Shown here: piece by piece, positions 12,929-31,207 of the stretch
Layout: each line of letters opens with the position of its first letter
Position numbering within the stretch: the stretch's first letter is position 1
Source: a bacterium
GTDB taxonomy: Bacteria > Planctomycetota > Planctomycetia > Planctomycetales > Planctomycetaceae
Direction of reading: 5' to 3'
Assembly: GCA_016124895.1 (NCBI GenBank)
Contig: WGMU01000019.1
Coordinates: 62,001 to 126,000, forward strand
Length of the DNA: 64,000 bases
Translations under genes and position numbers: made by a program
The notes under the pieces: model-generated
Database searches by the model: none
Told to the model about the DNA's origin: nothing
Seen by the model: the letters and a program-made list of their open reading frames with translations, nothing else

Positions 12929-12943
12929 TGGCACATTCTTTGC
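12929..12943 (+). promoter_or_regulatory. Sigma-54 -24/-12 promoter of the ANTAR/NtrC regulator pair
   Basis: TGGCACATTCTTTGC is a full match to TGGCAC-N5-TTGC. It ends 94 bases before the start of the ANTAR regulator. A TGTGC-N8-GCACA dyad (12857-12874) is centred about 90 bases before the expected start of transcription, a usual enhancer distance. Confidence 0.85.
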
Positions 12944-13037
12944 TTTCGGTCCGGCCGACAGAATTGAGTCCGCAGCGCAGGTCGCTGCGCAGTGCCGGAC
13001 GCAGGCAATGTGTCGCAGTGAGCAGTGACAGTACGTT

Positions 13038-13625
13038 ATGGGTGAACCTCTCAAAATCGTCGTGGCCGATGACGAAGTCGACATGCGCGACTTCTACCGG
13101 TCGATCCTGTCCGGTCTGGGACACACTGTAACGGCCGTCGCCAGCACGGGCCGTGAACTTGTTGAGGCGTGTGCCGCAGAAATGCCGGACCTGATCGTGA
13201 CCGATATCCGGATGCCTGAACTTGACGGGCTCGAAGCGCTGCGTGAAATCACACGGCTGGGCCGTCCGGTGCCCGCGATTGTCGTCTCGGGGTTTCATGA
13301 CGACGAGTTCATCCAGCGGGCGCAGCAGGAGTGCGTGCTCGCTTATCTCGTCAAGCCAGTCCGGGCTTCTGATCTCGAACCAGCGATCAAGCTCGCCCGG
13401 CAGCGGTTCCGCGAGATGCAGGCACTGCAGCAACAGGCGGACGATCTGCGACAGGCGCTGGAAGACCGCAAGCAGATCGAACGTGCAAAAGGGATACTGA
13501 TGGACCGCAGCGGCCTGTCCGAAAGTGACGCCTTCAAGCGGCTGCAGAAACTGTCGAACGACCGCAATCAGAAACTCGTCGAAATTGCCCGCGCGATCAT
13601 CACGGCCGAAGAAGCATTTGCTTAA
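13038..13625 (+). CDS. Response regulator with receiver and ANTAR RNA-binding domain
   Basis: 195 residues, the AmiR/NasT type. The receiver (about 5-120) has the acidic pair VVADDE, phospho-acceptor Asp in LIVTDIRMPELDG, Ser in VVSGF, and Lys in LVKPVRA. A coiled stretch (ALQQQADDLRQALEDRKQIE) leads to an ANTAR domain with IERAKGILMDRSGLSESDA and a final helix EIARAIITAEEAF. ANTAR domains bind two-hairpin RNA elements and prevent transcription termination. A perfect sigma-54 promoter lies upstream, and the NtrC-type regulator begins 14 bases after its stop, so the two are one operon. No cognate histidine kinase is visible in the window. Confidence 0.95.
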   Translation: MGEPLKIVVADDEVDMRDFYRSILSGLGHTVTAVASTGRELVEACAAEMPDLIVTDIRMPELDGLEALREITRLGRPVPAIVVSGFHDDEFIQRAQQECVLAYLVKPVRASDLEPAIKLARQRFREMQALQQQADDLRQALEDRKQIERAKGILMDRSGLSESDAFKRLQKLSNDRNQKLVEIARAIITAEEAFA

Positions 13626-13639
13626 TATGCAGCGAGTTG

Positions 13640-15031
13640 ATGATGGAACCAGGCCTTGGATCACCGATGACTACACCCGCTGAAAAACCCATCAACCTGC
13701 TGCTCGTCGAAGACGATGACGAATTTCGCGAGACGTGCGCATTGTGGATGTCCCGCAAGGGGCACAAAGTCACTGAAGCCAGTGACGCGCACGTGGCACT
13801 GCAGCTTTGTCAGACGAAACATTTTGACGTCGCCGTCGTCGACCTGAATATGCCCGGAATGAACGGTCTGGAGTTGCTCGACCGGTTGCAGGGCGACCAG
13901 ATCGAAATGCAGGTCCTGATGCTGACCGGGCAGGCGTCAGTCGACACTGCTGTCCAGGCAATGAAACTCGGCGCGTACGATTATCTGTCGAAACCGTTTC
14001 CTCTGCCCGAGCTGGAAAAACGCTGCCGGCTGGCCTTTGAACGCGGATGTCTGCAGAAGGAAAACCAGCAGCTTAAGGCCGTCATTGAGCGAACACGACC
14101 GCCGGTGCGGATGATCGGCCAGTCTCCGCCGATGTTGCAGGTGCAGCGGCTGATCGAACGGGCAGGACCGACCGACAAAGCGATTCTGATTCAGGGTGAA
14201 AGCGGGACCGGCAAGGAACTTGTCGCCCGTGGCCTGCAGGTCTGCAGCCTGCGAGCCGATCGTCCTTTCGTCACGATTAACTGTGCTGCGCTGCCGGAAC
14301 AGCTTGTCGAAAGTGAACTGTTCGGTCACGAAAAGGGTTCGTTCACGGGAGCAACGGCGACAAAGCCCGGCCTGTTCGAGGTTGCAGACGGCGGCACGAT
14401 TTTCATCGACGAAATCGGCGAGATGCCGCTCGGCCTCCAGCCAAAGCTGCTTCGTGTTCTGGAAGACGGCTCCCTGCGGCGAGTCGGTTCACATAAGGAA
14501 CGTCGTGTCAACGTGCGTCTGATCGCAGCGACGAATCGCAACCTCGGCGAGATGGCGGCGGGAGGCAAGTTCCGCGAAGACCTGTATTACCGCATCAATG
14601 TGCTGACGATTGAACTGGCCCCGCTGCGGGAACGCGAGGGCGACGTCGATCTTCTGATCGATCACTTCCTCGGTAAGGACTGGACAATCAGTCCGGAAGC
14701 GAAGAACGCCATGCGGGCCTATCACTGGCCAGGCAACGTCCGACAGCTCATCAACGTGATCGAACGGGCGACAATTCTGGCCGAGGACGGCTGCGTGCAG
14801 ATCTGCGACCTGCCGACCGAAGTCACTGGCAACTGCGAACGGATCATGCCCGCCGCGAAGATGTTTTCCAGCTCCGAAAAGCTCGAAGACCTGGAGCGGG
14901 CGCATGTCCTGCAGGTGCTGCATTCGCACGAGGGAAACAAGGCTCGAGCCGCACGGGCACTCGGCATCCACCGCCGCAAACTCTACCGTCTGCTCGAACG
15001 CTTCGAGATTCGGCCGGAAGAGTACGCGTGA
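13640..15031 (+). CDS. NtrC-family sigma-54-dependent response regulator
   Basis: About 463 residues. Receiver domain with LLVEDDDEF, phospho-acceptor Asp in VAVVDLNMPGMNG, LTGQAS and LSKPF; AAA+ domain with Walker A GESGTGKE, sigma-54 contact loop GSFTGA (Ser for Ala at position 2), Walker B TIFIDEIGEMP, and RIAATN/REDLYYRINV-type motifs; Fis-type helix-turn-helix at the C end (NKARAARALGIHRRKLYRLL). ATGs at 13640, 13643 and 13667 are all possible; none has a strong ribosome binding site. It is the natural candidate to activate the many -24/-12 promoters of the surrounding island. Confidence 0.95.
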   Translation: MMEPGLGSPMTTPAEKPINLLLVEDDDEFRETCALWMSRKGHKVTEASDAHVALQLCQTKHFDVAVVDLNMPGMNGLELLDRLQGDQIEMQVLMLTGQASVDTAVQAMKLGAYDYLSKPFPLPELEKRCRLAFERGCLQKENQQLKAVIERTRPPVRMIGQSPPMLQVQRLIERAGPTDKAILIQGESGTGKELVARGLQVCSLRADRPFVTINCAALPEQLVESELFGHEKGSFTGATATKPGLFEVADGGTIFIDEIGEMPLGLQPKLLRVLEDGSLRRVGSHKERRVNVRLIAATNRNLGEMAAGGKFREDLYYRINVLTIELAPLREREGDVDLLIDHFLGKDWTISPEAKNAMRAYHWPGNVRQLINVIERATILAEDGCVQICDLPTEVTGNCERIMPAAKMFSSSEKLEDLERAHVLQVLHSHEGNKARAARALGIHRRKLYRLLERFEIRPEEYA

Positions 15032-15177
15032 CGGCAGGCGGCTACTCCCGAGGGCCGGAGTTGCGCAGACGTCCGACCGGTTGGGTTGAGACGTTCAGAC
15101 AAACCGTCACTCGCTGTGAGTTGCATTTCGTACACATCCAGCGCAATCAGGGTCGCTCATTGGGTGGCCGGCGCTGG

Positions 15178-15210
15178 GCGAAACCCGCGAAGGAAGCCCC
15201 GGGGTTTCGC
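15178..15210. repeat. 9-bp inverted repeat between convergent genes
   Basis: GCGAAACCC (15178-15186) and GGGTTTCGC (15202-15210) can form a hairpin between the NtrC-type gene and the convergent Usp gene. It lacks a T tract, so it resembles a palindromic repeat more than a classic terminator. The rest of the 280-base gap shows nothing I can name. Confidence 0.5.
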
Positions 15211-15311
15211 TCGTGCCTCGCTCCAACCACGGCCACTCCGATTTCCAATCATTTATCGCTGGGATGTGTACTTCGCAGCGCATGACCACTCGGACGGCAC
15301 ACTGCTCGCTG

Positions 15312-16313
15312 TCAAACCGACGGCGTTTCCTGACTGTCGCTCGCTGCAGGAAACTCGACCGGACAGACAAAGCCTTCAGGCTTAATGGCGAGAACGGAGC
15401 AGGTCAGATGGGCGAGCACTCGTTCGGCGGTATTGCCGAGCAGGATGCCACTGATGCCCGAACGGGCCTGCGTCCCCATCACGACCAGATCGATCGACAG
15501 TTTGTCGACAGTGTTGTGGATCAACTGATGCGGTGAGCCGGCTGCGATGTGACGACGCCCCGAATCGATCGACGAGTCGAGCTGCAGGCGGGTCAGAGTG
15601 TCGTTCAGTTCGCGCTCAGCATCGGCATGAACCTTCGAGCGATACTGTTCGAGATCGTTGACTGGAATGATCAGGTCGCGCAGTTCGGACTCATAGTGGT
15701 ACTCGATCACGTGGAGAATATGCAGCTCCGCCTGTAACTGCTGAGCGAGCTGGTCGCCGAGCCGGACTGCTTCGTCGGCGGTTGGTGAGAAATCCGTCGG
15801 CACAAGAATCCGCCGAACCATACCGTCCTCGACGGGCGACGTGACCCAGACGGGGCACGGGCACTTGCGCAACAGGCGTCTCCCCGTATTTCCAAGCAGA
15901 ACCCGGCCGAGAACGTGCCGACGATGACTGCCGACCAGAACGAGATCATAGTTTCCGAAGACGGCCTCACGCAGCAGCTCCATCCACGGCGTTCCGGTCG
16001 TCTGAATCCAGTTGGTGTCAATTCCCGCCTGCCGCGTCTCGTCGGTCAGGGTTGCCAGACGCTGCTCCGCCTGTTCGTACATGGCGTCGAGTAACTCGGT
16101 GTAACGCTGCATTTCGGCAAGGTGCCGGGCGTCTGCATTCAGATCAAGACACGACATCAGCGACGCACAGAACGTGACGCTCGCTGAAGTATGACCGGCA
16201 ACCCACCGCGCCTTCTCAATCGCCGACCGCGTACTCGCCGAAAGCTCCGCGCAGATCGCGCCCGATTCCGAACACAGGTCAACCCCCACAAGAATCTTCC
16301 GAAACCGTTTCAT
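15312..16313 (-). CDS. Tandem-domain universal stress protein
   Basis: 333 residues with two UspA folds. Domain 1 (about 1-160) opens [12 protein letters not shown] and ends with [20 protein letters not shown]. Domain 2 (about 170-315) opens [17 protein letters not shown] and ends with the ATP-type loop [20 protein letters not shown]. Both keep the G-x2-G-x9-G/N-like nucleotide loop in modified form. Usp proteins respond to starvation, hypoxia and energy loss. A good sigma-54 promoter lies 61 bases upstream, divergent from the beta-CASP/LOG gene. Confidence 0.93.
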
Positions 16314-16374
16314 GGTCAGCGACTCCTCTGAGAAAACGTCAGAGCTTCACTTTTTCATCCGGAGGGTCAGACGA

Positions 16375-16389
16375 GCAAGCTGTGTGCCG
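16375..16389 (-). promoter_or_regulatory. Sigma-54 promoter of the tandem Usp gene
   Basis: On the minus strand CGGCAC-ACAGC-TTGC, nine of ten consensus bases with GG-N10-GC spacing. It sits 61 bases upstream of the Usp start codon. Confidence 0.75.
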
Positions 16390-16419
16390 TGCTTCGCGAT
16401 GCCGGGATTTCGCGACGGC

Positions 16420-16442
16420 TGGATCACAATGTGCGATCCAGT
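16420..16442. promoter_or_regulatory. Possible enhancer dyad between divergent sigma-54 promoters
   Basis: CTGGATC and GATCCAG form a perfect 7-bp dyad with a 9-base spacer, placed between the two divergent -24/-12 elements at distances compatible with an upstream activator site for either. Regulator identity is not shown by the sequence. Confidence 0.4.
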
Positions 16443-16548
16443 ACGCAGAAAACAACAGACGCGTCGTTCGATATTGCCGAACAATGCCGTTACCCGTCCT
16501 TTCCGAACGAGCAATTCCAGGGAAAGGATACTCTCGTTCCGGAGACGC

Positions 16549-16563
16549 GGGCACAAACCTTGC
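16549..16563 (+). promoter_or_regulatory. Sigma-54 promoter of the beta-CASP/LOG gene
   Basis: GGGCAC-AAACC-TTGC, nine of ten consensus bases with correct spacing, 175 bases before the start codon. It probably also drives the downstream P-type ATPase. Confidence 0.75.
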
Positions 16564-16738
16564 GTTGTCAGGGCAGAACTGTGAGAGTCGCGGTCCTTGA
16601 GCTACGCATTCCGGCACGAGATCGAGTTCTGGTCCGGAGGGTATCAGCCCAGGTGATCTGGCTGAGCAACAAACACCGGCAACAGAAGGCCGCCACTCTC
16701 TTTCCTTCGCGGAGCTTCTAACGAGATTCGGAGTCGCG

Positions 16739-18943
16739 ATGAGACTGACTTTTCTGGGTGCAAACCGCCAGGTGACCGGCTCGCGATACTGTCTGGAAGC
16801 GAACGGTTCGCGCGTAATGGTCGACTGCGGGCTCGTCCAGGAGCGGGCGTTTCTCGATCGCAACTGGGAGCCGTGCTCGATCGACCCGAAGTCGTTCGAC
16901 GCGCTGCTGATCACGCACGCTCATATCGACCATCTGGGTCTGGTGCCGAAGTTCGTGAAGGACGGCTTCAAGAGCACGATCTATGCGACGCATCCGACCG
17001 TCGAGCTGGCCGACGTCATGCTCCGCGATTCCGCAAAGATTCAGGAAGAAGATGCGCACTACAAGCAGCGACGGCATCATCGTGAAGGGCGTCGCGGCCG
17101 GCATCCGGAAGTGCCACTGTACACGACTGACGACGTCGTTAAGGCACTGCCGCTGTTTGAGGGTGTTGATTATCTCGAACCGGTCCACGTGGCCAAAGGC
17201 ATCACAGCGACCTGGTACGACGCCGGACATATTCTTGGTTCGGCGATGATCGAAATCGCAGTGACTGAAGGCGGTGAGAGACGGACGATTGTTTTCTCGG
17301 GCGATATCGGCCAGCGGGATAAGCCGCTGATTCATGATCCGTCGTACTTCCGGTACGCCGATTATGTCGTCATGGAGTCGACATACGGCGACCGCGAGCA
17401 CGAGCACAACGGCGACATCGAAACGCAACTGGAAAAAATCGTCACCGATACCGTCGCCCGCGGTGGCAACGTTGTGATCCCCGTCTTCGCCGTCGAACGC
17501 GCACAGGAGCTGATGTACTACGTGAGCCGCCTGGTCCATGCCAACCGGATCCCGGACATCCCGGTCTTCCTGGACAGTCCGATGGCGTCCGACGTGACGG
17601 CCATCTTCCGCAAGCATCGAAACTGGCTCGACGACGAAACGCGGGAACTGATTCAGTCGCACGAGCCCCCGCTGCAGTTTCCGGGATTGCGGATCACACG
17701 GTCGACGGAAGAGTCGATGGAGATCAACCGGATCATCACCCCGTGCATCATTATGGCACCGGCGGGGATGTGTAACGCTGGCCGGATCAAGCATCATCTG
17801 CGGCTGAATATCGGCCGTGATGAATCGACGATCGTCTTCGTCGGGCATCAGGCAAAAGGGACGCTGGGGCGTCGCATTCTCGACGGCGAACGCGAAGTGC
17901 GGATTCACGGCCGGTCGCTCCGCGTCTATGCGAAGATCGAACGGATTGACGGTCTGTCGGCACACGCGGATCGGAACGGTCTGGTCGAGTGGCTGAGTCA
18001 TTTTGAATCGCCGCCGCGCCGTCTGTTTCTGACACACGGTGAAGAAGAATCCTCGCTGGCACTGGCGCGGACCATTCGCGACCGGCTCGGCTGGGAAGCG
18101 ACAGTGCCTGAGTATGGCAATTCGATCGACCTCGCAGATGAACCGGTGAAGCGAACGGTTCTCGTCGCGGAACCGAAACCCGCAGCCGAAATCCCAACAC
18201 CGGCAACGCCCGTGACGCTGCCGGTTTCCCGACACGATTTCGAGTTTCTCGACAGCACGGCACGGCCGGGGACGGACTTCCTCTATCAGGACCCGTGGCG
18301 GGTCTTTCGGATGCAGAGCGACACGATTCAGGGCATCGAAGTGATGGCTCGCGCGCTGGAGGGAAGACGCCGTTCAATCGCCGTGTTTGGCAGTGCGCGA
18401 CTGCCCGATAGCGATCCCGTTTACGCACTGGCGCGTGAGACCTGTCGCCGGCTCGGTGAATGCGGTTTCGTAACCATTACCGGAGGCGGGCCGGGCGTGA
18501 TGGAAGCTGCGAACCGCGGCGCTCGTGACGCCGGCACACTCTCAATCGGATTAAACATCGACCTGCCCCATGAACAGCATCTCAATCCGTACTGCGATGT
18601 CAGCTACACGTGCCGATACTTCTTTGTGCGAAAGATGCTGTTTGCCAAGTATGCCCGGGCCTTTCTGATTTTCGCGGGTGGCTACGGCACAATGGACGAG
18701 CTGTTTGAAGCGCTCACGCTGATTCAGACCGAACGGCTGGCAGGCTTTCCAGTCATCCTGATCGGCAGCGACTACTGGAATCCGCTGGTGAGCTGGCTAC
18801 GCTCGACGATGTACGCTCACGGCTGCATTTCGGAAACCGACCTCAGTCGTTTCGTCGTACTTGACTCGCCTGAAGACGTGGTCGCGGAACTCGAAGCCTG
18901 CATTTCGGATAACGGTCATACGGCGGCTGCCGCGGAAGGCTGA
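16739..18943 (+). CDS. Beta-CASP metallo-beta-lactamase ribonuclease fused to a LOG-family domain
   Basis: 734 residues in one frame. Residues 1 to about 460 are a complete beta-CASP nuclease of the CPSF73/YSH1 type: MVDCGL, HAHIDHLG, YDAGHILGSAM, FSGDIG, MESTYGDREHE, PAGMCNAGRIKHHL and GLSAHADRNGL supply the metal ligands and motifs A-C. A Pro/Ala/Thr linker leads to a LOG domain from about 510: the DPWRVFRMQ lead-in, SIAVFGSARLP, TITGGGPGVMEAANRGA, the Arg-Lys pair in FFVRKML, and AGGYGTMDELFE in place of the usual PGGxGTxxE. LOG enzymes release nucleobases from nucleoside monophosphates. A nuclease joined to a nucleotide phosphoribohydrolase suggests RNA or nucleotide salvage under stress. 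The ATPase gene follows after 34 bases. Confidence 0.93.
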   Translation: MRLTFLGANRQVTGSRYCLEANGSRVMVDCGLVQERAFLDRNWEPCSIDPKSFDALLITHAHIDHLGLVPKFVKDGFKSTIYATHPTVELADVMLRDSAKIQEEDAHYKQRRHHREGRRGRHPEVPLYTTDDVVKALPLFEGVDYLEPVHVAKGITATWYDAGHILGSAMIEIAVTEGGERRTIVFSGDIGQRDKPLIHDPSYFRYADYVVMESTYGDREHEHNGDIETQLEKIVTDTVARGGNVVIPVFAVERAQELMYYVSRLVHANRIPDIPVFLDSPMASDVTAIFRKHRNWLDDETRELIQSHEPPLQFPGLRITRSTEESMEINRIITPCIIMAPAGMCNAGRIKHHLRLNIGRDESTIVFVGHQAKGTLGRRILDGEREVRIHGRSLRVYAKIERIDGLSAHADRNGLVEWLSHFESPPRRLFLTHGEEESSLALARTIRDRLGWEATVPEYGNSIDLADEPVKRTVLVAEPKPAAEIPTPATPVTLPVSRHDFEFLDSTARPGTDFLYQDPWRVFRMQSDTIQGIEVMARALEGRRRSIAVFGSARLPDSDPVYALARETCRRLGECGFVTITGGGPGVMEAANRGARDAGTLSIGLNIDLPHEQHLNPYCDVSYTCRYFFVRKMLFAKYARAFLIFAGGYGTMDELFEALTLIQTERLAGFPVILIGSDYWNPLVSWLRSTMYAHGCISETDLSRFVVLDSPEDVVAELEACISDNGHTAAAAEG

Positions 18944-18977: not shown

Positions 18978-21803
18978 ATGCCCGAACATCCGCAAACGAA
19001 CTGGCACTGCCAGGATGCGCTCCAGACGCTGGCCGAGATGCACACGGACAGCGATCGTGGCCTGTCAAAACTGCAGGTGCGCGAGAGGCTGCAGCGTTCC
19101 GGGCCGAATGAACTGATCGACGCAGGTGGTCGCAGTCCGTGGCGGATCCTGTGGGAGCAGTTTGCCAGCTCGATGATACTTCTGCTCGTCGCCGCCGCTG
19201 GCGTCTCAGCCATGCTGGGCGAGGTGCGCGACGCGATCGCCATCGTCTGCATCATCGTGCTGAATGCAGTGCTCGGCTTCGGGCAGGATTACCGTGCCGA
19301 GCGAGCGCTCGCGGCGCTGAAAAAACTCAGCGTTCCGCGGGTGCGAGTGAAACGCGACGGATCCGTGTCCGAAATCGCGTCGACGCTGCTGGTTCCAGGC
19401 GACGTGATTCTGGTGGAAGCCGGCAACTCGGTCCCCGCTGACTGCCGCCTGCTGATGGCATCGAATCTAAGGACGCAGGAGGCAGCGCTGACCGGCGAGT
19501 CTGATTCCGTCGAAAAGCAGACAGCCGCGTTGACCGACAGGCAGGCTCCGCTGGGCGACCGGTCCAACATGCTATGGATGGGGACATCGGTGACGTATGG
19601 ACGCGGAACCGCAGTTGTCGTCGCGACGGGGATGTCGACGCAACTCGGTCGGATCGCTGACTCGCTGCATCGCGTTGTCCCGGAGCAGACACCTCTGCAG
19701 AAACGGCTCGGGCAGTTGGGCCGTTCGCTGGCCGTTGCTGCGATTGCGATTGTCGCGGTTGTCTTTGTACTCGGCGTTGCACGCGGTGAGGCTCCGAAGC
19801 TAATGCTGATGACGGCGCTCAGCCTCGCCGTCGCCGTTGTCCCCGAGGGGCTGCCTGCCGTCGCCACCGTCGCGCTGGCACTCGGTGCGCGGCGAATGTT
19901 TCAGCGCCACGCCCTCATTCGCAAACTGCCGGCAGTCGAAACGCTCGGTTCGGTCACTGTCATCTGCACGGACAAAACGGGCACACTGACACAGAATCGA
20001 ATGACCGTGACGGTACTCGATGTCGCAGGCACGCGGCTCGACCTGCCCAACGTGCCAACGGAGTCCGATGGTCAGTTTCAATTCGATACGACAACACAGA
20101 CAGCGATCGCAGACAGTTCGACCCTGTCGCTGCTGCTGTTGACCGGAAGTCTGTGCAACGATGCCGAGCTGACTGGCGACGCTGAACGTGACGGAGTTCC
20201 CACCGTAAGCGGCGAACCGACTGAATCCGCACTGGTCGTTGCGGCAGCTTCAGCCGGGCTTGAACTGACGACGCTGAGACAATTGCTGCCGCGCGTTGCG
20301 GAGGTGCCGTTCGACTCAGCCCGCAAACGGATGACAACAATTCACCGCACAGCAGGCTCGGCTGTGACAACTCGCGGTGACGGCAGACTTTCAACGACGG
20401 AACGTGCAGCAGCACCGCTGCTCGAACTCGACGAGTCGGATGCAATTGCGCTCTGCAAAGGAGCACCCGGCAGCCTGCTCGACATCTGCAGCGACGTCTG
20501 GGTCGACGACGACGTTCGCACGCTCGACGACCACTGGAGGGAAAAGATCAATGCAGCAGGTGACGAACTGGCGGGGCAGGGGATGCGCGTGCTCGCCTTT
20601 GCGTTTCGACCTCTGGACGAAGTGCCCGCTGCCGGTCACGAAGGTGATGTCGAGCAGCAGTTGATCTTTCTCGGCCTGATGGCGCTGATCGATCCGCCGC
20701 GACCTGAAGTTCGGAACGCCGTCGCCCGCTGCCGCACGGCAGGCATTCGACCGATCATGATCACGGGCGACCATCCGCTGACGGCGCTGCAGATCGCCAG
20801 AGAACTCGGCATTACGACGTCAGATAACGATGGCTCCACAGCAGGCCCAAGTGTTCTGACCGGTCGCGAGCTGACTGCGCAAACGCCGGCAGATCTGCGG
20901 GACGGAGTCGAGCACGTCGTTGTTTACTCGCGAGTTGCGCCGGCGGACAAGCTGCACATCGTGCAGGCTCTGCAGGCAAACGGGCAGGTCGTCGCAATGA
21001 CGGGTGACGGCGTCAACGACGCTCCCGCACTGCGGCAGGCACACGTCGGCGTGGCGATGGGGATCACCGGGACGGACGTTTCGAAAGAAGCTTCCGAAAT
21101 GGTCCTGCTTGACGACAACTTCGCGACGATCGTCAATGCCGTCGAGGAGGGCCGCGTCGTTTATGACAACATCCGCAAGTTCGTTCGCTACACAATGACC
21201 AGCAACGCGGGCGAAATCTGCGTCATGCTGTTCGGACCGCTGTTCGGGATGCCGCTGCCTCTGCGCCCGCTACAGATCCTGTGGGTGAATCTGGTGACAG
21301 ACGGTCTGCCAGGACTGGCTCTGGCTGTTGAACCCGGCGAGCGGGACACCATGCGCCGTCCACCGCGTCCGCCGAACGAGCACGTGCTGGGACGCGGGAT
21401 GGCGACCGATATTGTCTGGATCGGACTGCTGATGGGCGGCGTCTCGCTGCTGGCCGGCTCATTGTTCCACAGAGCGGACGACGTTTCGATCAGCAACCGG
21501 CAACAGACCATCGTCTTTACCGTGCTGACGCTTTCGCAGATGGGTAACGTTCTGGCGACTCGCTCCGACCGCAACCTGCTCTTCCGGATTGGTCTCTTCT
21601 CGAATCCGGCTCTCGTCGCCGCTGTGCTGCTGACGTTCGGACTGCAACTGGCCGTGATCTACCTTCCGCCGCTGCAGACTCTGTTTCACACGCAGTCCCT
21701 GAGCATGTCCGAACTGGCATGCTGCTTCGTGCTCAGCACTGTTGTGTTTGCGGCGGTCGAACTCAGAAAGTGGATCTGCTTTCGAGAATCTGATCGCGCG
21801 TGA
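18978..21803 (+). CDS. P2-type (calcium-like) cation-transporting ATPase
   Basis: 941 residues, about the usual length. N-terminal cation-ATPase domain ([15 protein letters not shown]), actuator loop [10 protein letters not shown], ion-site motif [21 protein letters not shown] in M4, phosphorylation site [16 protein letters not shown]-binding region (ALCKGAPG), hinge [22 protein letters not shown], and the six C-terminal spans. The PEGLP motif fits P2A/PMR1-like Ca2+ or Mn2+ pumps; the ion is not certain. The ATG at 18978 begins a normal N terminus; the frame is open earlier but overlaps the previous gene. Likely co-transcribed with the beta-CASP/LOG gene. Mycobacterial CtpF of the DosR regulon is a P2-type analogue. 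Confidence 0.94.
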
Positions 21804-24532: not shown

Positions 24533-24678
24533 AGAGTTCTCGCAGTTTCGGAAACGTGTCTTATTGATGCCTGTGGCAGAAGCCCGCAGATGCGATCCGA
24601 AAACGAGCAAAACTGTTCGTTCGACTTGCGCGCTATCGCACCAGTGGAGTTCTCCTGCAGGCTGAGTGGAGTCGGTCA

Positions 24679-24693
24679 GCAAAAGTGGCGCCA
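24679..24693 (-). promoter_or_regulatory. Sigma-54 promoter of the BON gene
   Basis: On the minus strand TGGCGC-CACTT-TTGC, nine of ten consensus bases, 146 bases upstream of the start codon. Confidence 0.75.
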
Positions 24694-24752: not shown

Positions 24753-24762
24753 GGTGAAACCC

Positions 24763-24777
24763 TGGCCTGTCGTTTGC
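24763..24777 (+). promoter_or_regulatory. Sigma-54 promoter of the alcohol dehydrogenase gene
   Basis: TGGCCT-GTCGT-TTGC, eight of ten consensus bases, full -12 element, 117 bases before the start codon. Confidence 0.75.
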
Positions 24778-24894
24778 GTGCTGCTCATTCTGATTGATTC
24801 CCAGTGCCCGGTTCTCACGCAAATGTCGCCTCCAATTGAGACGCTTTGTCGACTGTGGTGATGAAAAACAGCAATGCAATTGAAGGAATAAGCA

Positions 24895-25926
24895 ATGAAG
24901 GCGATGGTGCTCTACGGGATGCACTCGCTAGCAGAGAGCGACGAGCCTCTCCGACTGGCTGATCTGCCCGTCCCTGAACCGAGTACCGGCGAAGTGTTAC
25001 TGCGCGTCTCAGTGTGCGGCGTCTGTCACACTGAGCTGGACGAAATTGAAGGCCGCACACCGCCGCCGTCTTATCCTGTCGTACCCGGCCACGAAGTCAT
25101 CGGCCGCGTCGAACGGCTCGGCCGCGGCGTCTCACTGCTGCACGAAGGGCAGCGCGTCGGCGTCGGCTGGATCCACTCGTCAAGCGGCGACGTGTTCGAA
25201 AATCTCAGCCCGCAGTTTCGAGCGACCGGACGAGACGTCAACGGTGGCTATGCCGAGTTCATGACCGTTCCCGAAGCCTACGCGTACCCGATTCCCGAGG
25301 TCTTCTCCGATGCGGAGGCGGCGCCGTTGCTGTGTGCCGGCGCGGTCGGTTACCGAGCCCTCAAGCTGACCAACCTGTGCGATGGCCAGCGGCTCGGCCT
25401 GACGGGATTCGGCGGGTCTGCGCATATCGTTCTGCAGCTTGCCAGACAGCGGTTCCCGAACTCGCCCGTTTACGTGTTCGCCCGCGACGCCGCTGCCCGC
25501 GACTTCGCCAGGCAACTCGGCGCCGTCTGGGCCGGCAATACGGATGACCGACCGCCGGAACTGCTCAACGCCATCATTGACACAACGCCCGTGTGGAAGC
25601 CGGTTGTTGAAGCGCTTGCCTGCCTGGCACCCAACGGCCGTCTGGTCATCAACGCGATTCGTAAAGAGAACCAGGACATCCAGGAGCTGACTCGACTGAG
25701 CTACCACGAGCATCTGTGGATGGAGCGGGAAATCAAAACGGTCGCCAACGTCACGCACTTCGACATCCGCGAGTTCCTGCCACTGGCCGCCGCGATCCCC
25801 ATCCGTCCGGAAGTCGAGACCTACCCGCTCGAAGCCGCCAATCAGGCACTCGTCGACCTCAAGCGTAAACCGGTCCGCGGTGCGAAAGTGCTGATCGTCA
25901 ATCCCGCAGCGACATCCAACCGCTGA
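24895..25926 (+). CDS. Zinc-binding alcohol dehydrogenase (TIGR02822-like) lacking the structural zinc loop
   Basis: 343-residue medium-chain dehydrogenase/reductase, probably oxidising alcohols or reducing aldehydes with NAD(P). AAGGAA precedes the ATG. The catalytic zinc site is intact (VCGVCHTELDE with Cys44; PGHEVIGRVERLG with His66; Cys in LLCAGAVGYRALKL). The Rossmann turn is present in modified form (LTGFGGSAHIV). The segment that normally carries four structural-zinc Cys is shortened here to WIHSSSGDVFENLSPQF (about 92-108) with no Cys at all; Ser stands at two of the expected positions. The following TGRDVNGGYAEFM is normal. The enzyme is otherwise well conserved, so it probably folds without structural zinc. 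Driven by its own sigma-54 promoter. Confidence 0.92.
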   Translation: MKAMVLYGMHSLAESDEPLRLADLPVPEPSTGEVLLRVSVCGVCHTELDEIEGRTPPPSYPVVPGHEVIGRVERLGRGVSLLHEGQRVGVGWIHSSSGDVFENLSPQFRATGRDVNGGYAEFMTVPEAYAYPIPEVFSDAEAAPLLCAGAVGYRALKLTNLCDGQRLGLTGFGGSAHIVLQLARQRFPNSPVYVFARDAAARDFARQLGAVWAGNTDDRPPELLNAIIDTTPVWKPVVEALACLAPNGRLVINAIRKENQDIQELTRLSYHEHLWMEREIKTVANVTHFDIREFLPLAAAIPIRPEVETYPLEAANQALVDLKRKPVRGAKVLIVNPAATSNR

Positions 25927-25990: not shown

Positions 25991-26413
25991 TCACTGCTGT
26001 TGCTGTTCCCTGCGGATCAGTTTGTGACACTTCACGCAGGACAGCGTCATCTGCATGTAAGCGAGCGTCGCTTCGTCGATCTGTTTACGCTGCGCCCCAG
26101 ATTCAATGCCTTCCAGTGTCGTCCAGAAGACCTGCAGTTGAGTGCGGTATTCATCGGTCGGCTCGTTCGCCCATTCTTCTCGAGCAATTCGCCCCAACTC
26201 CTGCGCAGCGACCTCAAGCTGCGGATAATCCTCGCGGGCCAGGCTGGTCAGAATCTGGTGAGCGAAACGCAGCTTTTCCTTCATCACGGCCGACAGGTCT
26301 TCTTTGGGAGCCTTCTGTTTCGGCTGGTCTTTCGGCTGCGGGTCCTGAGCGCTGACAGCAAAGAAGCCGACAACAGCGATCAGACAGGCGAGTGCAATAG
26401 CGGACTTCTTCAT
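25991..26413 (-). CDS. Exported cytochrome c'-like haem protein
   Basis: 140 residues; AAGGAG precedes the ATG. A signal peptide (ALACLIAVVGFFAVSAQ) and a Lys/Pro/Gln-rich linker lead to a helical domain (LRFAHQILTSLAREDY... AQELGRIAREEW... TLEGIESGAQR) ending with one haem-binding CxxCH in LSCVKCHKLIR near the C terminus. A four-helix protein with C-terminal CxxCH fits the class II cytochrome c' family, known for binding NO and CO. It lies 72 bases after the APH/AAA gene on the same strand and is probably in its operon. Confidence 0.85.
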   Translation of the reverse strand: MKKSAIALACLIAVVGFFAVSAQDPQPKDQPKQKAPKEDLSAVMKEKLRFAHQILTSLAREDYPQLEVAAQELGRIAREEWANEPTDEYRTQLQVFWTTLEGIESGAQRKQIDEATLAYMQMTLSCVKCHKLIRREQQQQ

Positions 26414-26485: not shown

Positions 26486-28060
26486 TCACGACAACTTCTC
26501 CAGAACTCGCTGCAGACCGGCAGCGGTGCTGCGTTCGTCTGAAGTATCAACAACAACAATCTGGCTCGATGGTTCGTGCTCGATTCCGGTATCCCGACGT
26601 CGTTGCTGCTGCAGTACAGCAACGTTCGCATCCGAAGCGTCGTGGTCTGACTGTTCGCGCACCGCAACTCGTGCCGTCAGAACGTCGTCCGGAGCCGAAC
26701 ACGCAACGATCAGAAACGGCACGCGCAGTTCCACTGCGAGCTGCCGGAACGGTTCTCGCTTATCAGCCGACAGGAACGCCGCGTCGACAACGACTGGAAA
26801 CCCGGCCGCAATCACTGTTCGTGCCAGCTCGATCAGTCGGTCGTATGTGCGGGCATTGGCCTCGGCCGAGTACAGCTCTGCCGCCGCTGTTCCGGTCACA
26901 CGGTCTGTTTCGTCCAGACCGAACAGCCGCTTCCGCTCAACATCCGACCGAATCCGAATTGCCGCGCTGCGTTCGAGAATCTGTTCGGCGAAGTGTGTTT
27001 TCCCACTGCCCGAAAGCCCGTGCATGATCAGCAGAGCCGGGGGTGATCGCTCGGCATCGTGGTCAGCAACGGACAGATACATGCCAAATTCGCGGCGCAG
27101 TGTCCGGCGCTGCAATTCCGACGGCATGTCGCCGCTGAGCCGGATCAGGTCGACCTTTGCCCGCACCATCGCTCGATAGACCAGATAAAACCGCAGGACC
27201 GCGAGGCCCGCATAATCGCCAGTCCGCTCAAGATACCGATTGAGCAGCCGCCGCGCGAGCTGCGGCTCGCCGTGCTCTTCGAGATCCATGACGAGGAACG
27301 CGATCTCGCTGATCACGTCACTCCAGCGAAAGCCCGCATTGAATTCCACACAGTCAAACAGGCACGGCCCGGTGTCGAGTTCGACGATATTCCCAAGATG
27401 CAGATCACCGTGGCACTCGCGGATAAAGCCGCCGTTTCGCCGTTGTTCAAAGACACCACTCAGTCGCTCAGCCTCTGTCTGCGTCCATTTCCGCAAGTGT
27501 CGAATCTCGCCCGAATACGCTGCTTCGTCACCTGCGTGTTCCTCGATCGAAACAAAATTCGCCAGCGCGTCGCCCCGGATGCCGTCTGCCCGGCCATAAG
27601 GCGAGTCAGTCTCGGCGGCCTGAAGCGACAGATGGAAATCGGCGATGCGTTCCGCCAGCGCGTCAATCTGCAGAGGCTCAAGCCGTCCCGCGACGACAAT
27701 CCGCGACAGCAGTCTCTCGTCATCAAAGCGGTGCATTCTGACCGCATACTCGATCGGCTCGCCATCGCCGCCGATACTTGGAGCCTCCCCATTGCCAGAG
27801 ATCGGGACAACGTCGAGATACAGTTCAGCCGCCGTCCGCCGGTTCAGTCGCAGCTCTTCCTCGCAGAAGTGCTTTCGCTTTGCGAGCGTCGAAAAATCCA
27901 GAAAGTCGAACCGTACCGGCTTCTTGATCTTCCAGGCGAAGTCGCGTGTCAGCAGGACCCATGAAATATGAGTTTCAATCATGCGCACCGCCTCCGGACG
28001 ATCCGGCCAGATTGCCGGATTCTGCAGCGAGTCGATCCGGATTGCGGTCCGCGTGCTCAT
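26486..28060 (-). CDS. Fused APH-like kinase and AAA/P-loop kinase (COG2187-COG0645)
   Basis: About 524 residues from the chosen start; ATG 27 bases upstream and GTG at 28147 are alternatives. The N-terminal part (about 1-330) is an aminoglycoside-phosphotransferase-like domain with Lys in AWKIKKPVRFDFLDFS, Brenner motif HGDLHLGNI and metal motif FDCVEFN. The C-terminal part (about 345-520) is a small P-loop kinase with Walker A MHGLSGSGKTHFAEQ and SDVERKRLFG, resembling gluconate-kinase-like ATPases. The same fusion is Rv2004c of the mycobacterial DosR regulon, whose function is unclear. A sigma-54-type promoter sits 53 bases upstream, divergent from the 28305 gene. Confidence 0.9.
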   Translation of the reverse strand: MSTRTAIRIDSLQNPAIWPDRPEAVRMIETHISWVLLTRDFAWKIKKPVRFDFLDFSTLAKRKHFCEEELRLNRRTAAELYLDVVPISGNGEAPSIGGDGEPIEYAVRMHRFDDERLLSRIVVAGRLEPLQIDALAERIADFHLSLQAAETDSPYGRADGIRGDALANFVSIEEHAGDEAAYSGEIRHLRKWTQTEAERLSGVFEQRRNGGFIRECHGDLHLGNIVELDTGPCLFDCVEFNAGFRWSDVISEIAFLVMDLEEHGEPQLARRLLNRYLERTGDYAGLAVLRFYLVYRAMVRAKVDLIRLSGDMPSELQRRTLRREFGMYLSVADHDAERSPPALLIMHGLSGSGKTHFAEQILERSAAIRIRSDVERKRLFGLDETDRVTGTAAAELYSAEANARTYDRLIELARTVIAAGFPVVVDAAFLSADKREPFRQLAVELRVPFLIVACSAPDDVLTARVAVREQSDHDASDANVAVLQQQRRRDTGIEHEPSSQIVVVDTSDERSTAAGLQRVLEKLS

Positions 28061-28113
28061 CCCGTCAGTTCGCCCGATAAAAGACATCGTTGATTGAGCT
28101 AAAGATTCCGCGA

Positions 28114-28129
28114 GCAAACTCAATGCCGC
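28114..28129 (-). promoter_or_regulatory. Sigma-54 promoter of the APH/AAA kinase gene
   Basis: On the minus strand CGGCAT-TGAGT-TTGC, eight of ten consensus bases, full -12 element. Position is certain to within one base. Confidence 0.65.
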
Positions 28130-28239
28130 GTCGGAAAAGAGCCGCACCGCCGCCTTTCATTTGCCCTCAGAAGGGTGTTCAGCTTCCCCGCGCAGACGCG
28201 TTGAGACCCGGTTATGCTTGGCGCTGAATTCGAACATCG

Positions 28240-28254
28240 TGGCATCGCATTTGC
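28240..28254 (+). promoter_or_regulatory. Sigma-54 promoter of the 28305-29102 gene
   Basis: TGGCAT-CGCAT-TTGC, nine of ten consensus bases, 50 bases before the start codon. Confidence 0.8.
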
Positions 28255-28304
28255 CAAGAGGTTCACGCAGCGCGTCGGGCAGCCTTGGAAGCAGGGAACG
28301 AAAC

Positions 28305-29102
28305 ATGAGTGACACGCCGTCAGCGACAGCTCGCGGAGGTGATTTTCGAGTAGCCGTGTTCAGCCGCGGTGACGATATCGAGGCAATGGCTGCAGTGCTC
28401 AGCGAATCGCTCGGGTTGAATCGAGTCGATGCGAAGATTCATGCCGCACATCTGCCCGGACTTCTCGCAGACAGACTGACAAACGAGCAGGCTGAAATCG
28501 TCGTCGCTGCAGTTCGCCAGCTCGGCGTTGCCGCTGCTGCGGTCGCACAGTCCGACGTTCCGCAACTCAATCATCCGGAGACGATCCATCGTGCCGCGTG
28601 TCTCGACGACGGCCTGGAGATCATCGGACTCAGCGGCGCCCGTTCGGGATTCATCGCCTGGCCGGATCTCGAATTCATCAGCGTCGGATACGTGCCTCTC
28701 GAAGGCGCCCATCATTACGCGCCCGAATCGCCCGTCGTCCTGCACAGTGCGCCGCACGAGGTCGAGGAGCAGTCAGAGGGAGTCGCCGTCAGCGGCCCGG
28801 TCTGCTGGTTTATCGCCAGGAATCCACAGCGTATCTACTTTCTCAATCACAGCCGGATGAATTACGACTACCTCGCCGATCGGAAGTCGTCATCCGCCGC
28901 CGCCAACTTCTCGGAATTCCTGACAGACCTGACGGGCTCGGCCACGACGGCTTACCTGACGCCGGCAACGCGCGCGATCCTCCATCACGGCTCGGCCAGC
29001 GACTACCTCTTTAAGGACGCTGAACAGTTCAAACAGGCGACGATCCTGCAGTATCTCCTGCATACTACGGTCGCCGCCGCTCAGTTACCTGAACACAGTT
29101 AA
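28305..29102 (+). CDS. Hypothetical stress-island protein with ClpS/L7-L12-like N-terminal pattern
   Basis: Not recognised as a named family. 265 residues; AGGGA precedes the ATG. Residues about 12-80 show a repeating beta-alpha pattern (FRVAVFSRGDDIEAMAAVLSESLG..., HAAHLPGLLADRLTNEQAEIVVAAVRQLGVAAAAV) like small ferredoxin-like or L7/L12 C-terminal folds that end with removal of an acidic/hydrophobic helix. The rest (about 95-260) alternates beta strands (LEIIGLSGARSGFIAWPDL, VCWFIARNPQRIYFLNH) and ends with helices. No signal peptide or membrane span. Its own sigma-54 promoter ties it to the island, so it is a good candidate for an unknown stress protein. Confidence 0.75.
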   Translation: MSDTPSATARGGDFRVAVFSRGDDIEAMAAVLSESLGLNRVDAKIHAAHLPGLLADRLTNEQAEIVVAAVRQLGVAAAAVAQSDVPQLNHPETIHRAACLDDGLEIIGLSGARSGFIAWPDLEFISVGYVPLEGAHHYAPESPVVLHSAPHEVEEQSEGVAVSGPVCWFIARNPQRIYFLNHSRMNYDYLADRKSSSAAANFSEFLTDLTGSATTAYLTPATRAILHHGSASDYLFKDAEQFKQATILQYLLHTTVAAAQLPEHS

Positions 29103-29133
29103 GCACTCTTCCAGCGGCAGTTCGGCAGTTCCC

Positions 29134-29148
29134 CGGTACGCAATCTGC
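29134..29148 (+). promoter_or_regulatory. Weak sigma-54-like element before the single-domain Usp gene
   Basis: CGGTAC-GCAAT-CTGC, seven of ten consensus bases with correct GG-N10-GC spacing, 67 bases before the start codon. Confidence 0.45.
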
Positions 29149-29215
29149 TCGATTTTGAGTACGGGGTCGGCAGTCAGAGGTCTCGGACAACGTCATTTGA
29201 GCACGGAGAAACAGC

Positions 29216-29653
29216 ATGTTACCGCGATTCAAAAACGTTCTGGTTCCAGTCGACTTTGCCGAGAAGAACTGGGCGGCGCTGGATGTCGCGTTTGAAATCG
29301 CCGTCAATAACAAGGCCGCCGTCACTCTGCTGCACGTCATCGAGACGATTGACGAAGGTGACCTGGACGCCGATCCGGACGTTACCGAGTTCTACCGCCG
29401 GCTGAAGCAGCGGGGAAAACGCGAACTCGAAACCATGGGCCAACGTTTTGTCGAAGCCGGCATTGAGGTCCACGAGAAGATTCGCTTTGGCAAGCGAGCC
29501 CCCGAAATCGTGGCGTACGCGGCCGAACACACCTCTGACCTGATCATCATGAGTTCGCATCCGCTGCGCGAATCAAATCCAGCGGCGAGCCTCGTCACGC
29601 TCAGTTATCAGGTCTCGCTGCTCTGCTCGTGTCCGATCCTGCTGGTCAAGTGA
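29216..29653 (+). CDS. Universal stress protein, single domain
   Basis: 145 residues, one UspA fold: opening FKNVLVPVDFAEKNWAALDVA, middle LHVIETIDEGDLD, and AEHTSDLIIMSSHPLRE. The glycine-rich ATP loop is missing: after SSH the sequence runs PLRESNPAASLVTLSYQVSLL rather than G-x2-G-x9-G-S, so it probably does not bind ATP and belongs with UspA/UspE-like forms. The membrane protein gene follows 86 bases later on the same strand. Confidence 0.92.
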   Translation: MLPRFKNVLVPVDFAEKNWAALDVAFEIAVNNKAAVTLLHVIETIDEGDLDADPDVTEFYRRLKQRGKRELETMGQRFVEAGIEVHEKIRFGKRAPEIVAYAAEHTSDLIIMSSHPLRESNPAASLVTLSYQVSLLCSCPILLVK

Positions 29654-29739
29654 GGTCGCGGCCAAACCCTGTCTGCACGACACGGCAGCCTGACTCTGCA
29701 GTGCGGAATGCGACCGATTGACCAGCCTGGAGTACCCTG

Positions 29740-30534
29740 ATGCCGGACCCGTCTGGCGGATCCCTCACCAACCCCGAAGACAAGCTCGACGCCGCGGAGC
29801 TGACCGCCTCGCTGGACAAGGCCGAAGAGCGGCTATGGCTGCGGCATCGCGCGATCTGGTGGGCAACCCTGGCTGGACCGCTGCTGATTACCATCGCTCT
29901 GCTGGTAACAGTTTTTGTAGCTGCCGGAGCTGACTTCACTCAACGTCTGCTGACGACCGCGCTGTCTGGTCTGTTTCTGTTTGGTCGTTTCATCATCCTG
30001 GCGGGGCACGATCCGGAAGTGGCGCGAGTGACAGGCGGTCTCAGCTCACCGCAGTTGTTCGTGATGGTCACATATCTCGATGTGATTGTCGCCGTGACGC
30101 TGATTTTCCATACGGGCTTTCTATTTCACCTGCCATGGTTCGGGTCACGAGCGACCGCATTCGTCGCCGATGGCCGCTTCCTGATCCGCTCGCACCCCTG
30201 GATTCGTCGCACAACGTTCCTGGGACTGGTGCTGTTTGTCGCCATTCCGCTTGCCGCCATGGGCAGCGTGGGTGGGACGATCCTCGGCCGAATGCTGGGC
30301 GTCACGCGGCTGCGCATCTTCCTGGCGATTCTGTTCGGCAGCCTGCTGGGTAACAGCGTGATGTGGCTCGGATCTGACTTGATTAACCACTTCGTCGACA
30401 AGCACCATCCGGTTGTTCGTTTCGGCGGAATCATCCTCATACTGACGCTGATCGGTGCGATCGAATTTTTCTATCGCCGGGCCAAACGAACCGACTCGAA
30501 ACACTCCAAATCATTGTTTTCGAAAAACGGTTGA
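29740..30534 (+). CDS. COG2426-like small multidrug export family membrane protein
   Basis: 264 residues. After a charged cytoplasmic N terminus of about 40 residues there are six or so spans (WWATLAGPLLITIALLVTVFV, LLTTALSGLFLFGRFIIL, LFVMVTYLDVIVAVTLIFHTGFL, FLGLVLFVAIPLAAMGSVGG, and two more) and a Lys/Arg-rich C end. The re-entrant pattern PLAAMGSVGGTILGRMLG followed by FGSLLGNSVMWLG fits the Sm_multidrug_ex/COG2426 family, whose substrate is not firmly established. It is probably co-transcribed with the preceding Usp gene. Confidence 0.75.
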   Translation: MPDPSGGSLTNPEDKLDAAELTASLDKAEERLWLRHRAIWWATLAGPLLITIALLVTVFVAAGADFTQRLLTTALSGLFLFGRFIILAGHDPEVARVTGGLSSPQLFVMVTYLDVIVAVTLIFHTGFLFHLPWFGSRATAFVADGRFLIRSHPWIRRTTFLGLVLFVAIPLAAMGSVGGTILGRMLGVTRLRIFLAILFGSLLGNSVMWLGSDLINHFVDKHHPVVRFGGIILILTLIGAIEFFYRRAKRTDSKHSKSLFSKNG

Positions 30535-30610
30535 CGACGCTTTTGTATGCCGCCTGCTATAACTCGCGTGCTGATCCGCACGACTGTGCCGTGTTGACAC
30601 GCGACTGTCT

Positions 30611-30619
30611 GGGGGGGGG
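30611..30619. repeat. Run of nine G residues
   Basis: A homopolymer lying 16 bases upstream of the -24 element of the next Usp gene. Slippage here would alter the spacing between promoter and upstream sites. Confidence 0.7.
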
Positions 30620-30635
30620 CACAGCAGTCGGAGTG

Positions 30636-30650
30636 TGGCATGGCTTTCGC
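30636..30650 (+). promoter_or_regulatory. Sigma-54 promoter of the third Usp gene
   Basis: TGGCAT-GGCTT-TCGC, eight of ten consensus bases, 116 bases before the start codon. A CGTGC-N6-GCACG dyad (30567-30582) is centred about 88 bases before the expected transcription start. Confidence 0.65.
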
Positions 30651-30766
30651 TTTTCTCACAGTTGATGGCGAGTGGGTCGACGCTCCCCCGCTGGACTGGA
30701 CACGAGACCGCGTTTCTGGATGTGAACTCAGATGGCTCACGCATACTCGCGAAAAAGGAAGGTGTC

Positions 30767-31207
30767 ATGAGCTGGCTACCCAAAAAGACCGTCCTGGTCC
30801 CCACCGACTTTTCCGAACCGTCAGCCGATGCCGTGCATACCGCTCTGGAACTGGTCGAATGCGGGGCCGATGTTCACGTCCTGCACGTACTGCAGCCAAT
30901 TGAGCATAACGCTCCCGAAGTTCTTTTCGGCGATCTCGACGACGATACCCGCCGGGATAAAGCCGGGCAGTTTCTGGCCGACTTCCTGAAGCGTCATGGG
31001 ATTAACGGCGTGACCAGGATCATCCGCATCGGCGACCCCGGCCTGGCAGTTGCCGAGTACGCTGCGGAGAACAACGCTGACCTGATCGTCATCCCCTCGC
31101 ACGGCCACCACGGACTGCGTCGCATCCTGCTGGGCTCCGTCGCCGAACGCATCATCCGCCATGCGGAATGCCCAACGCTGATCCTGCGCCGCAAGGACCA
31201 CGACTGA
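30767..31207 (+). CDS. Universal stress protein, ATP-binding type
   Basis: 146 residues from an ATG preceded by AAGGAAGG; the frame upstream to 30635 is untranslated leader. One UspA fold: KTVLVPTDFSEPSADAVHTAL, VHVLHVLQPIE, and an intact nucleotide loop PSHGHHGLRRILLGSVAERIIR with the G-x2-G-x9-type pattern. It is therefore the ATP-binding kind, unlike the single-domain Usp at 29216. Last recognisable member of the sigma-54 island. Confidence 0.94.
   Translation: MSWLPKKTVLVPTDFSEPSADAVHTALELVECGADVHVLHVLQPIEHNAPEVLFGDLDDDTRRDKAGQFLADFLKRHGINGVTRIIRIGDPGLAVAEYAAENNADLIVIPSHGHHGLRRILLGSVAERIIRHAECPTLILRRKDHD

Follow-up and report, generated by a model that had tools for sequence, protein, structure and literature searches.

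A sigma-54 stress island in a planctomycete genome, probably part of an Nmp-type regulon for oxygen limitation

The NmpRSTU system of Myxococcus xanthus is formed by an NtrC-like regulator working with sigma-54, a protoglobin histidine kinase, a double-receiver protein and a receiver-kinase hybrid (PMC11841059, PMC6211767). It has been proposed to act when oxygen is limiting. The autophosphorylation of NmpU is reported to be heme-dependent and the hypoxic induction of mxan_4236 to be NmpR-dependent; the reported targets comprise a universal stress protein (Usp) and a CBS protein, and also a P-type ATPase with cbb3 oxidase (PMC11841059). Homologues of nmpSTU have been noted earlier in Planctomyces sp. 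SH-PL14, and of NmpU and NmpT in other species (PMC6211767). Here, we compare with this system an island that extends from about 12.86 to about 31.21 kb of a window of 64,000 nucleotides (assembly GCA_016124895.1, contig WGMU01000019.1, positions 62,001 to 126,000). The window is part of contig C52 of a planctomycete genome (G000) of 8.13 Mb in 195 contigs. A pair of ANTAR and NtrC regulators stands at one edge of the island (Pfam), as had been recognized in an earlier reading of the sequence, hereafter the original prediction, and the NtrC-type activator is its likely driver.

In our opinion, there is a good probability that the island forms the local portion of a regulon run by its own NtrC-type activator (13667–15031), which would be the NmpR-like output of a planctomycete oxygen relay of NmpRSTU type. 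The best-supported identity is probably an Nmp-type regulon for oxygen limitation, similar to the mycobacterial DosR regulon in content and not in control. On present evidence, the island system would work like NmpRSTU, with which it has in common an NtrC-like REC-AAA-HTH regulator, a protoglobin histidine kinase and a receiver-HisKA hybrid, the three being presumed partners. It differs in its enhancer, which is TGTGCG-N4-CGCACA here and GCGCA-N5-TGCGC in M. xanthus, in the ANTAR response regulator that joins the module, in the targets seen here, which are a stress set (Usp, Hsp20, APH-AAA, P2 ATPase, beta-CASP/LOG), and in the separate loci that kinases and regulator occupy in the own genome.

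According to the mechanism that we propose, a soluble NmpU-like protoglobin haem kinase and an NmpS-like receiver-PAS-kinase hybrid, both encoded on contig C34, would read oxygen. When oxygen falls, the hybrid kinase would phosphorylate the NtrC-type regulator, which would assemble on enhancers of the TGTGCG-N4-CGCACA type, mostly 60–200 bases upstream, and open RNA polymerase-sigma-54 at the -24/-12 elements of its own operon and of Usp, Hsp20, BON, APH-AAA and unknown genes. More doubtful targets would be the beta-CASP/LOG-P2 ATPase operon and the alcohol dehydrogenase (ADH) gene, and the REC-ANTAR protein of the same operon would probably give a second, RNA-level output. We infer the phosphotransfer, the oxygen signal and the resulting transcription from promoters, enhancer, gene linkage and domain architectures found by computation. 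What is new here is the enhancer upstream of such sigma-54 promoters in many planctomycetes. The original prediction had noticed neither this enhancer nor the partner kinases, protoglobin and hybrid, of this genome and of relatives, and it made no mention of the NmpRSTU system in the literature; together these provide a likelier identity and an oxygen-sensing mechanism.

The second system of comparison is the DosR/DosST regulon of Mycobacterium tuberculosis, whose two-component system is tied to hypoxia and which includes several Usp, the alpha-crystallin Rv2031c, the transport protein Rv1997 and Rv2004c (PMC5309233). Judged by Pfam, the target families Usp, Hsp20, P2 ATPase and APH-AAA are common to both, which is a resemblance only. 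Rv1997 belongs to the P2 ATPases and Rv2004c to the APH-AAA proteins, DosR is a NarL/LuxR-type regulator, and the DosST sensor is a GAF haem kinase. In contrast, the regulators of the island are of REC-ANTAR and REC-AAA-HTH_8 architecture with sigma-54, and its sensor would be a protoglobin kinase. The DosR box, with a consensus entered by hand, gave 0 matches at up to three mismatches (0.00 expected). The proposed DosR likeness therefore holds for gene-family content and fails for control. As to the phylum itself, we take COG3707 to be the ANTAR response-regulator family. A predicted sigma-54 regulon of Planctomycetia over-represents Usp (COG0589), IbpA-type chaperones, NtrC-type COG2204 and COG3707; unlike the present case, no enhancer, oxygen sensor or island is described in the available parts of that work (PMC12316311).

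Sigma-54 promoters of the island

Eleven GG-N10-GC elements had been proposed, and all of them were found in the sequence, at most about one base from their predicted places and some 24 to 175 bases from the preferred start codons. As had been said, one match to TGGCAC-N5-TTGC is perfect and most are close: nine of the eleven agree at eight or more of the ten bases by eye, and 23106(−) and 29134(+) at seven. The perfect copy (12929..12944, +) precedes the ANTAR-NtrC operon. Good scores on a sigma-54 matrix, whose values were entered by hand after the known consensus, are reached before the tandem Usp gene (16374..16389, −; 16), the 30767 Usp gene (30636..30651, +; 14.4), APH-AAA (28113..28128, −; 13.9), Hsp20 (23791..23806, −; 13.5), the BON gene (24678..24693, −; 13.5) and the 28305 gene (28240..28255, +; 12.3). 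The sigma-54-like elements of the 29216 Usp gene (29134..29149, +) and the beta-CASP/LOG gene (16549..16564, +) both score 11.3, and those of ADH (24763..24778, +; 8.7) and of the cyclic-nucleotide-binding-domain (CNB) gene (23106, −; below 8) are weak. The elements of the island are real and not due to chance, and 8 or 9 of the 11 are good predicted sigma-54 promoters.

Counting the plain consensus gave no enrichment in the window (38 found against 31.9 expected at up to two mismatches). In the whole 8.13 Mb, one mismatch gave 188 places, of which the island holds 3; as the backwards pattern was found even more often, at 344 places, this count is uninformative alone. Since plain counting was not enriched, it was dropped in favour of directed sites, that is, intergenic sites that score at least 11 and point at a gene within 250 bases, with genes called by our own caller. 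The island has eight of them in 3,459 intergenic bases, and the rest of the window, with 6,232 intergenic bases, has one. As controls, fifteen stretches of 20 kb each (300 kb) were taken from the same genome, hand-picked after part of its consensus hits had already been listed; they hold seven in 52,037 intergenic bases. The island thus has 8 directed sites against 0.47 expected (Poisson p 3.6e-8), 17-fold over the genome rate, and 9 when the BON gene, missed by the caller, is added by hand. The original prediction had asked whether hits are enriched in the island, and the directed sites answer positively where the plain scan does not. An accidental origin of these GG-N10-GC matches, in intergenic DNA that is rich in GC, would agree with the unenriched plain scans of window and genome; the 17-fold excess, and the conservation of the kept cores above their flanks in a related genome, make this explanation hardly credible. 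The rpoN gene, which had been named as a check, is present in the own genome with one match. The statement that nothing comparable exists elsewhere in the window is nearly correct: a sigma-54-like element at 37710–37725(+), with a score of 12.6, stands before a DUF1801 gene (37794–38222), and a strong intergenic match at 43162–43177(+), TGGCACACCCAGTGCT, scores 15.4 with no called gene in its direction.

The comparison included a single genome of the same genus, G001, in which the island is split over five contigs; G007, G015, G016, G018 and G033 are other genomes, and L-numbers denote loci. The element is kept in G001 at six promoters, namely those of the ANTAR gene (11 of 11 core positions), the tandem Usp (counterpart CGGCATACCGCTTGCA), Hsp20 (16 of 16 bases identical), APH-AAA (CGGCATTGGGTTTGCT, at the same distance), the 28305 gene (9 of 11 core positions) and the 30767 Usp (8 of 11). 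It is not kept at the beta-CASP and CNB promoters; the BON gene has moved, no ADH was seen in G001, and the 29216 gene is outside the G001 contigs compared. For the seven promoters with an element in G001, six from the island and that of the own NmpU-like kinase, the cores are identical at 55 of 77 positions and the flanks at 822 of 1,732 (p 3.7e-5). This count is favoured by the exclusion of the beta-CASP and CNB promoters, where the element is lost, and takes two promoters misaligned by the program as they fell. As a result, the claim that all eleven elements are intergenic, gene-directed and functional stands for most of the island, with eight good sites (nine with BON), and does not extend to the weak ADH and CNB elements or, with regard to conservation, to beta-CASP.

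The enhancer palindrome in the island and in other genera

A palindromic enhancer, or upstream activating sequence (UAS), of the TGTGCG-N4-CGCACA type, TGTGCGAATTCGCACA, lies upstream of sigma-54 promoters in many planctomycetes. It was derived by expectation-maximization (EM). In the 21 upstream regions used, of which the window supplied 10, G001 7 and G007 4, a palindrome close to TGTGCGAATTCGCACA beat four shuffles each at widths 16, 18 and 22; width 20, also with four shuffles, gave a different and unconvincing pattern. A first matrix was built from eight seed sites and applied to 17 regulator-ortholog loci of other genera (L114–L130, 295 kb) that had not been used in the derivation. Of its 51 hits with a score of at least 11, many of them near-perfect palindromes, 17 were 20–200 bases upstream of intergenic sigma-54 sites, against 1.2 expected. 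In 15 more distant or flanking loci, 5 of 89 hits at score 9 were near sigma-54 sites (0.72 expected).

A second matrix, formed by 25 sites hand-picked from the L114–L130 listing, was tested on 37 of 80 loci fetched with the protoglobin kinase, which have no long identical stretch in common with earlier loci; the test excluded L265, L266 and L290, whose genomes had been used before, and 40 kinase-only matches that come mostly from outside the planctomycetes. The 37 loci gave 49 hits, 27 of them intergenic, and 16 near sigma-54 sites in 12 loci, where 0.77 would be expected by area and 2.05 among the intergenic hits. With permuted matrices, the maximum was 3 in 100 permutations and 2 in a further 200.

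The second matrix has five intergenic hits scoring at least 8 in the window, and the best four precede island promoters. The palindrome of the 30767 Usp gene (30567..30582, CGTGCTGATCCGCACG), identical in G001, has the best position weight matrix (PWM) score of the window, 16.7; that of the ANTAR-NtrC promoter (12859..12877, +, TGTGCCCGTTATCGCACAG; matrix hit 12861–12876, PWM 12.3) has a wider half-site spacing than the consensus. Both were seeds of the first matrix. A UAS-like palindrome lies upstream of the ADH promoter (24627..24642, PWM 9.9), and a weak UAS-like site is common to the divergent Usp and beta-CASP promoters (16430..16445, PWM 8.9). The mean enhancer score over the eleven promoters has a p of 0.0003 when compared with intergenic places drawn at random outside the island, and of 0.004 when places of any kind are drawn. 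The consensus enhancer is not enriched in the own genome (269 places at up to two mismatches, 438 for the backwards control), and the sites of this genus seem degenerate or respaced. A composite enhancer-promoter pattern found four places in the own genome, two of them in the island, and its backwards control three; it is not evidence, because it was shaped on those two island places. The same pattern had four hits in 59 genomes and its control 2; as two of the four fall at islands that had served for training, it was likewise rejected.

In the relatives, with the cut for the sigma-54-like element lowered to a score of 7, enhancer and element together precede the NtrC gene itself and Usp genes. 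They are also found before APH-AAA (L117), beta-CASP/LOG (L193), P2 ATPase and small-multidrug-export genes arranged divergently (L194), a haem-motif gene (L119, L120, L121), a CBS gene (L114) and a pyruvate phosphate dikinase gene (L121). In G016, the gene of an ATP-synthase alpha/beta-family subunit (L115 5564–7015) stands behind two strong enhancer matches and a sigma-54 element, which suggests that an ATPase belongs to the regulon of this genome. As the gene order varies between genera, the logic of the promoters persists where synteny is lost. Nor is the set of genes constant: in nine other genomes, loci centred on APH-AAA (L200–L208) had no regulator match, and a directed sigma-54 site preceded APH-AAA in one (L207; the gene itself was uncalled in L206), so that APH-AAA is not always in this regulon.

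Globin kinases, the ANTAR regulator and rival readings

The ortholog of the island NtrC regulator in G007 is 83% identical and is the closest match outside the genus among the matches listed. In that genome, genes for a Protoglobin-HisKA-HATPase and a REC-PAS-HisKA-HATPase protein are divergent from the regulator over a common enhancer. G018 has a single-receiver protein in addition to the kinases beside the regulator, and in G033 the order is protoglobin kinase, double receiver, hybrid kinase, ANTAR regulator and NtrC regulator; linkage of protoglobin kinase and regulator is found in these three genomes and in others. The own genome carries both kinase genes together on C34, with 66% and 73% identity to the G007 pair. 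They stand behind DUF4405 and globin (PF00042) genes (L256 8422–9462) with a sigma-54-like site ahead, and in G001 there are genes of equal size and a comparable site. The sigma-54-like element directly in front of the protoglobin kinase gene, TGGCATCGGATATGCG (score 9.8), is kept in G001 as TGGCACCCGATATGCG (10.8).

We take Tyr45, Leu68 and His99 of the Anaeromyxobacter kinase AfGcHK, numbered by hand counting, to be haem-pocket residues. They are aligned to Tyr, Leu and His in the own protoglobin domain, which matches AfGcHK (PDB 5ohe) with an E-value of 1.5e-25; unlike the own kinase, the solved 5ohe chain is the globin domain only. Five protoglobin matches exist in the own genome, and the frames of four reach or exceed about 400 residues. 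A second set of kinase, double receiver and hybrid is located at L255 10071–13091 (C121), where the double receiver is NmpT-like at 37%, and another globin kinase at L254 9931–11118 (C100). A paralogous NtrC regulator on C35 (53% identical) was set aside because of the GAGCG-type palindromes around it. This paralog (L131) and those of L094 and L095 (52–53%) seemingly have a different palindrome, GAGCGATATCGCTC-like, and a globin kinase is near the regulator in L131 and L094.

Of 46 loci surveyed, 39 had the protoglobin kinase (NmpU-like) by cut-off, and 29 of these 39 had more than 3.5 kb downstream. Among these 29, the genes after the kinase include a double receiver in 19, a hybrid kinase in 20 and an ANTAR regulator in 14; a Usp gene is found in 14, and an NtrC protein of at least 50% identity occurs, anywhere in the locus, in 10. 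The ANTAR regulator is thus a recurrent extra of Nmp-type loci (14/29). The domain is scarce in the group: eight genes in 6 of 25 genomes. Five of the eight are in Nmp-type operons or beside the NtrC regulator. Of the other three, one adjoins an ADH gene 66% identical to that of the island, one adjoins a receiver-kinase gene (33% to NmpS), and one is close to a BON gene that has a sigma-54 site. The island protein (13038..13625, +; Pfam REC-ANTAR) has a 90% counterpart in G001 and relatives of 44–59% in NmpU operons. This gene linkage points to a probable role as a second output. A single full-text search of the available papers found none joining "ANTAR domain" with "globin-coupled".

ANTAR antiterminators act on hexaloop RNA hairpins in leaders. 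A bolder version of the circuit, which we advance only tentatively, would be a forked relay in Planctomycetota: the globin/hybrid kinase pair would feed both the NtrC activator, for initiation with sigma-54, and the ANTAR regulator, for terminator read-through, and the two would jointly control a dormancy-type set that is DosR-like by convergence.

Several observations weigh against an Nmp-type oxygen regulon. A simple scan of ten island leaders showed no ANTAR-type hairpin, and there is no Rfam match at 8–40 kb of the window; the targets of the ANTAR protein may lie elsewhere. The site published for NmpR, GCGCA-N5-TGCGC, shows no enrichment here (54 found against 107 expected); since this binding site was looked for and not found in excess, we do not claim membership of NmpRSTU proper, and the likeness is one of parts list. 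The enhancer test in the window is partly circular, four of the eight seeds of the first matrix being window sites. Moreover, the consensus enhancer is not over-represented in the window (48 found against 62.4 expected at up to three mismatches), it has no perfect copy in the own genome, and six of the eleven promoters (CNB, Hsp20, BON, APH-AAA, 28305 and 29216) have no upstream site at score 8.

These six promoters would fit a loose general-stress cluster in which sigma-54 promoters obey several unrelated activators and the ANTAR/NtrC pair is a neighbour rather than a master, as would the enrichment of Usp and small-heat-shock-type genes under sigma-54 already reported for Planctomycetia in the available part of PMC12316311. 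We consider such a cluster quite improbable, given that in many genera the enhancer is found again upstream of the same gene families, and that it also precedes the regulator itself. The kinases count against the Nmp-type reading as well, since in the own genome they are unlinked to the island and no NmpT-like gene accompanies the pair on C34. NtrC-type matches number at least 28 in the genome (101 candidates, 28 of them scored), and another activator could therefore serve some promoters. Together with the five protoglobin matches and the neighbouring kinase with PAS domains and no globin in some relatives (L114, L117), this leaves room for a sigma-54/NtrC stress regulon whose signal is not oxygen and is received by another kinase, for metal, redox or starvation in the manner of ZraSR, while the protoglobin kinases act on other regulators. 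Such a regulon appears unlikely to us, because in G007 the kinases are divergent from the regulator over a common enhancer and because an NtrC protein is present in 10 of the 29 NmpU loci counted above. Hence, an Nmp-type regulon driven by the NtrC-type activator is the reading that we prefer.

Gene content and significance of the island

The NtrC-type activator (13667..15031, +; REC-AAA+-HTH_8 by Pfam, NmpR-like), the orthologs of which adjoin the protoglobin and hybrid kinases in relatives, follows the ANTAR gene. Next comes the tandem-domain Usp gene (15312..16313, −; two Pfam Usp stretches). Between them, a MITE-like (miniature inverted-repeat transposable element) sequence with 10-base perfect terminal inverted repeats occupies 15130–15271; its middle (about 15159–15239) has dozens of short matching stretches in G001 and G015. 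The fusion of a beta-CASP metallo-beta-lactamase and a LOG (lysine decarboxylase-type) domain (16739..18943, +; Pfam) is followed after about 35 bases by the P2-type cation ATPase (18978..21803, +; Pfam, NCBIfam). The LOG fusion is whole in G001 and G015 among the matches listed, and the beta-CASP part reaches 416 of 800 bits with the NCBIfam model of type VII CRISPR Cas14, far under its cut-off.

Further on, Pfam identifies a DUF7670 protein (21888..22310, +), the CNB protein (22345..23082, −), the Hsp20/alpha-crystallin small heat shock protein (23219..23689, −), the BON-domain protein (24197..24532, −; start codon chosen by hand) and the zinc-type ADH (24895..25926, +). A small protein (25991..26413, −) has no Pfam hit and carries a CVKCH haem motif read in the sequence, and would be a cytochrome c' according to the original prediction; its relatives, at 25–34%, recur in islands of other genomes. 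The APH-AAA_33 kinase fusion (26486..28087, −; Pfam) is succeeded by the sigma-54-linked 28305 gene (28305..29102, +), which has no Pfam or NCBIfam hit and has matches in 19 of 59 genomes. The AlphaFold model of its product has a pLDDT (predicted local distance difference test) of 83.5, and the N-terminal part shows a weak likeness to the L7/L12 C-terminal domain or ClpS (Foldseek best E 0.009). Two Usp genes (29216..29653, + and 30767..31207, +; Pfam), with a small multidrug export-type membrane protein (29740..30534, +; Pfam PF06695) between them, complete the island.

We think that a stress cluster which carried no label becomes, with these results, a circuit that can be tested and that has a likely sensor, regulator, enhancer and promoters; the gene control of this phylum has been little studied. 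If the Nmp-type reading is true, planctomycetes, in which homologues of NmpS, NmpT and NmpU had already been noted (PMC6211767), would gain a regulator, an enhancer and a set of targets, and relays of this kind would gain an ANTAR protein. Also, actinobacteria and planctomycetes would use unrelated machinery to subject much the same survival set to low oxygen, and it would follow that the gene set matters more than its switch.

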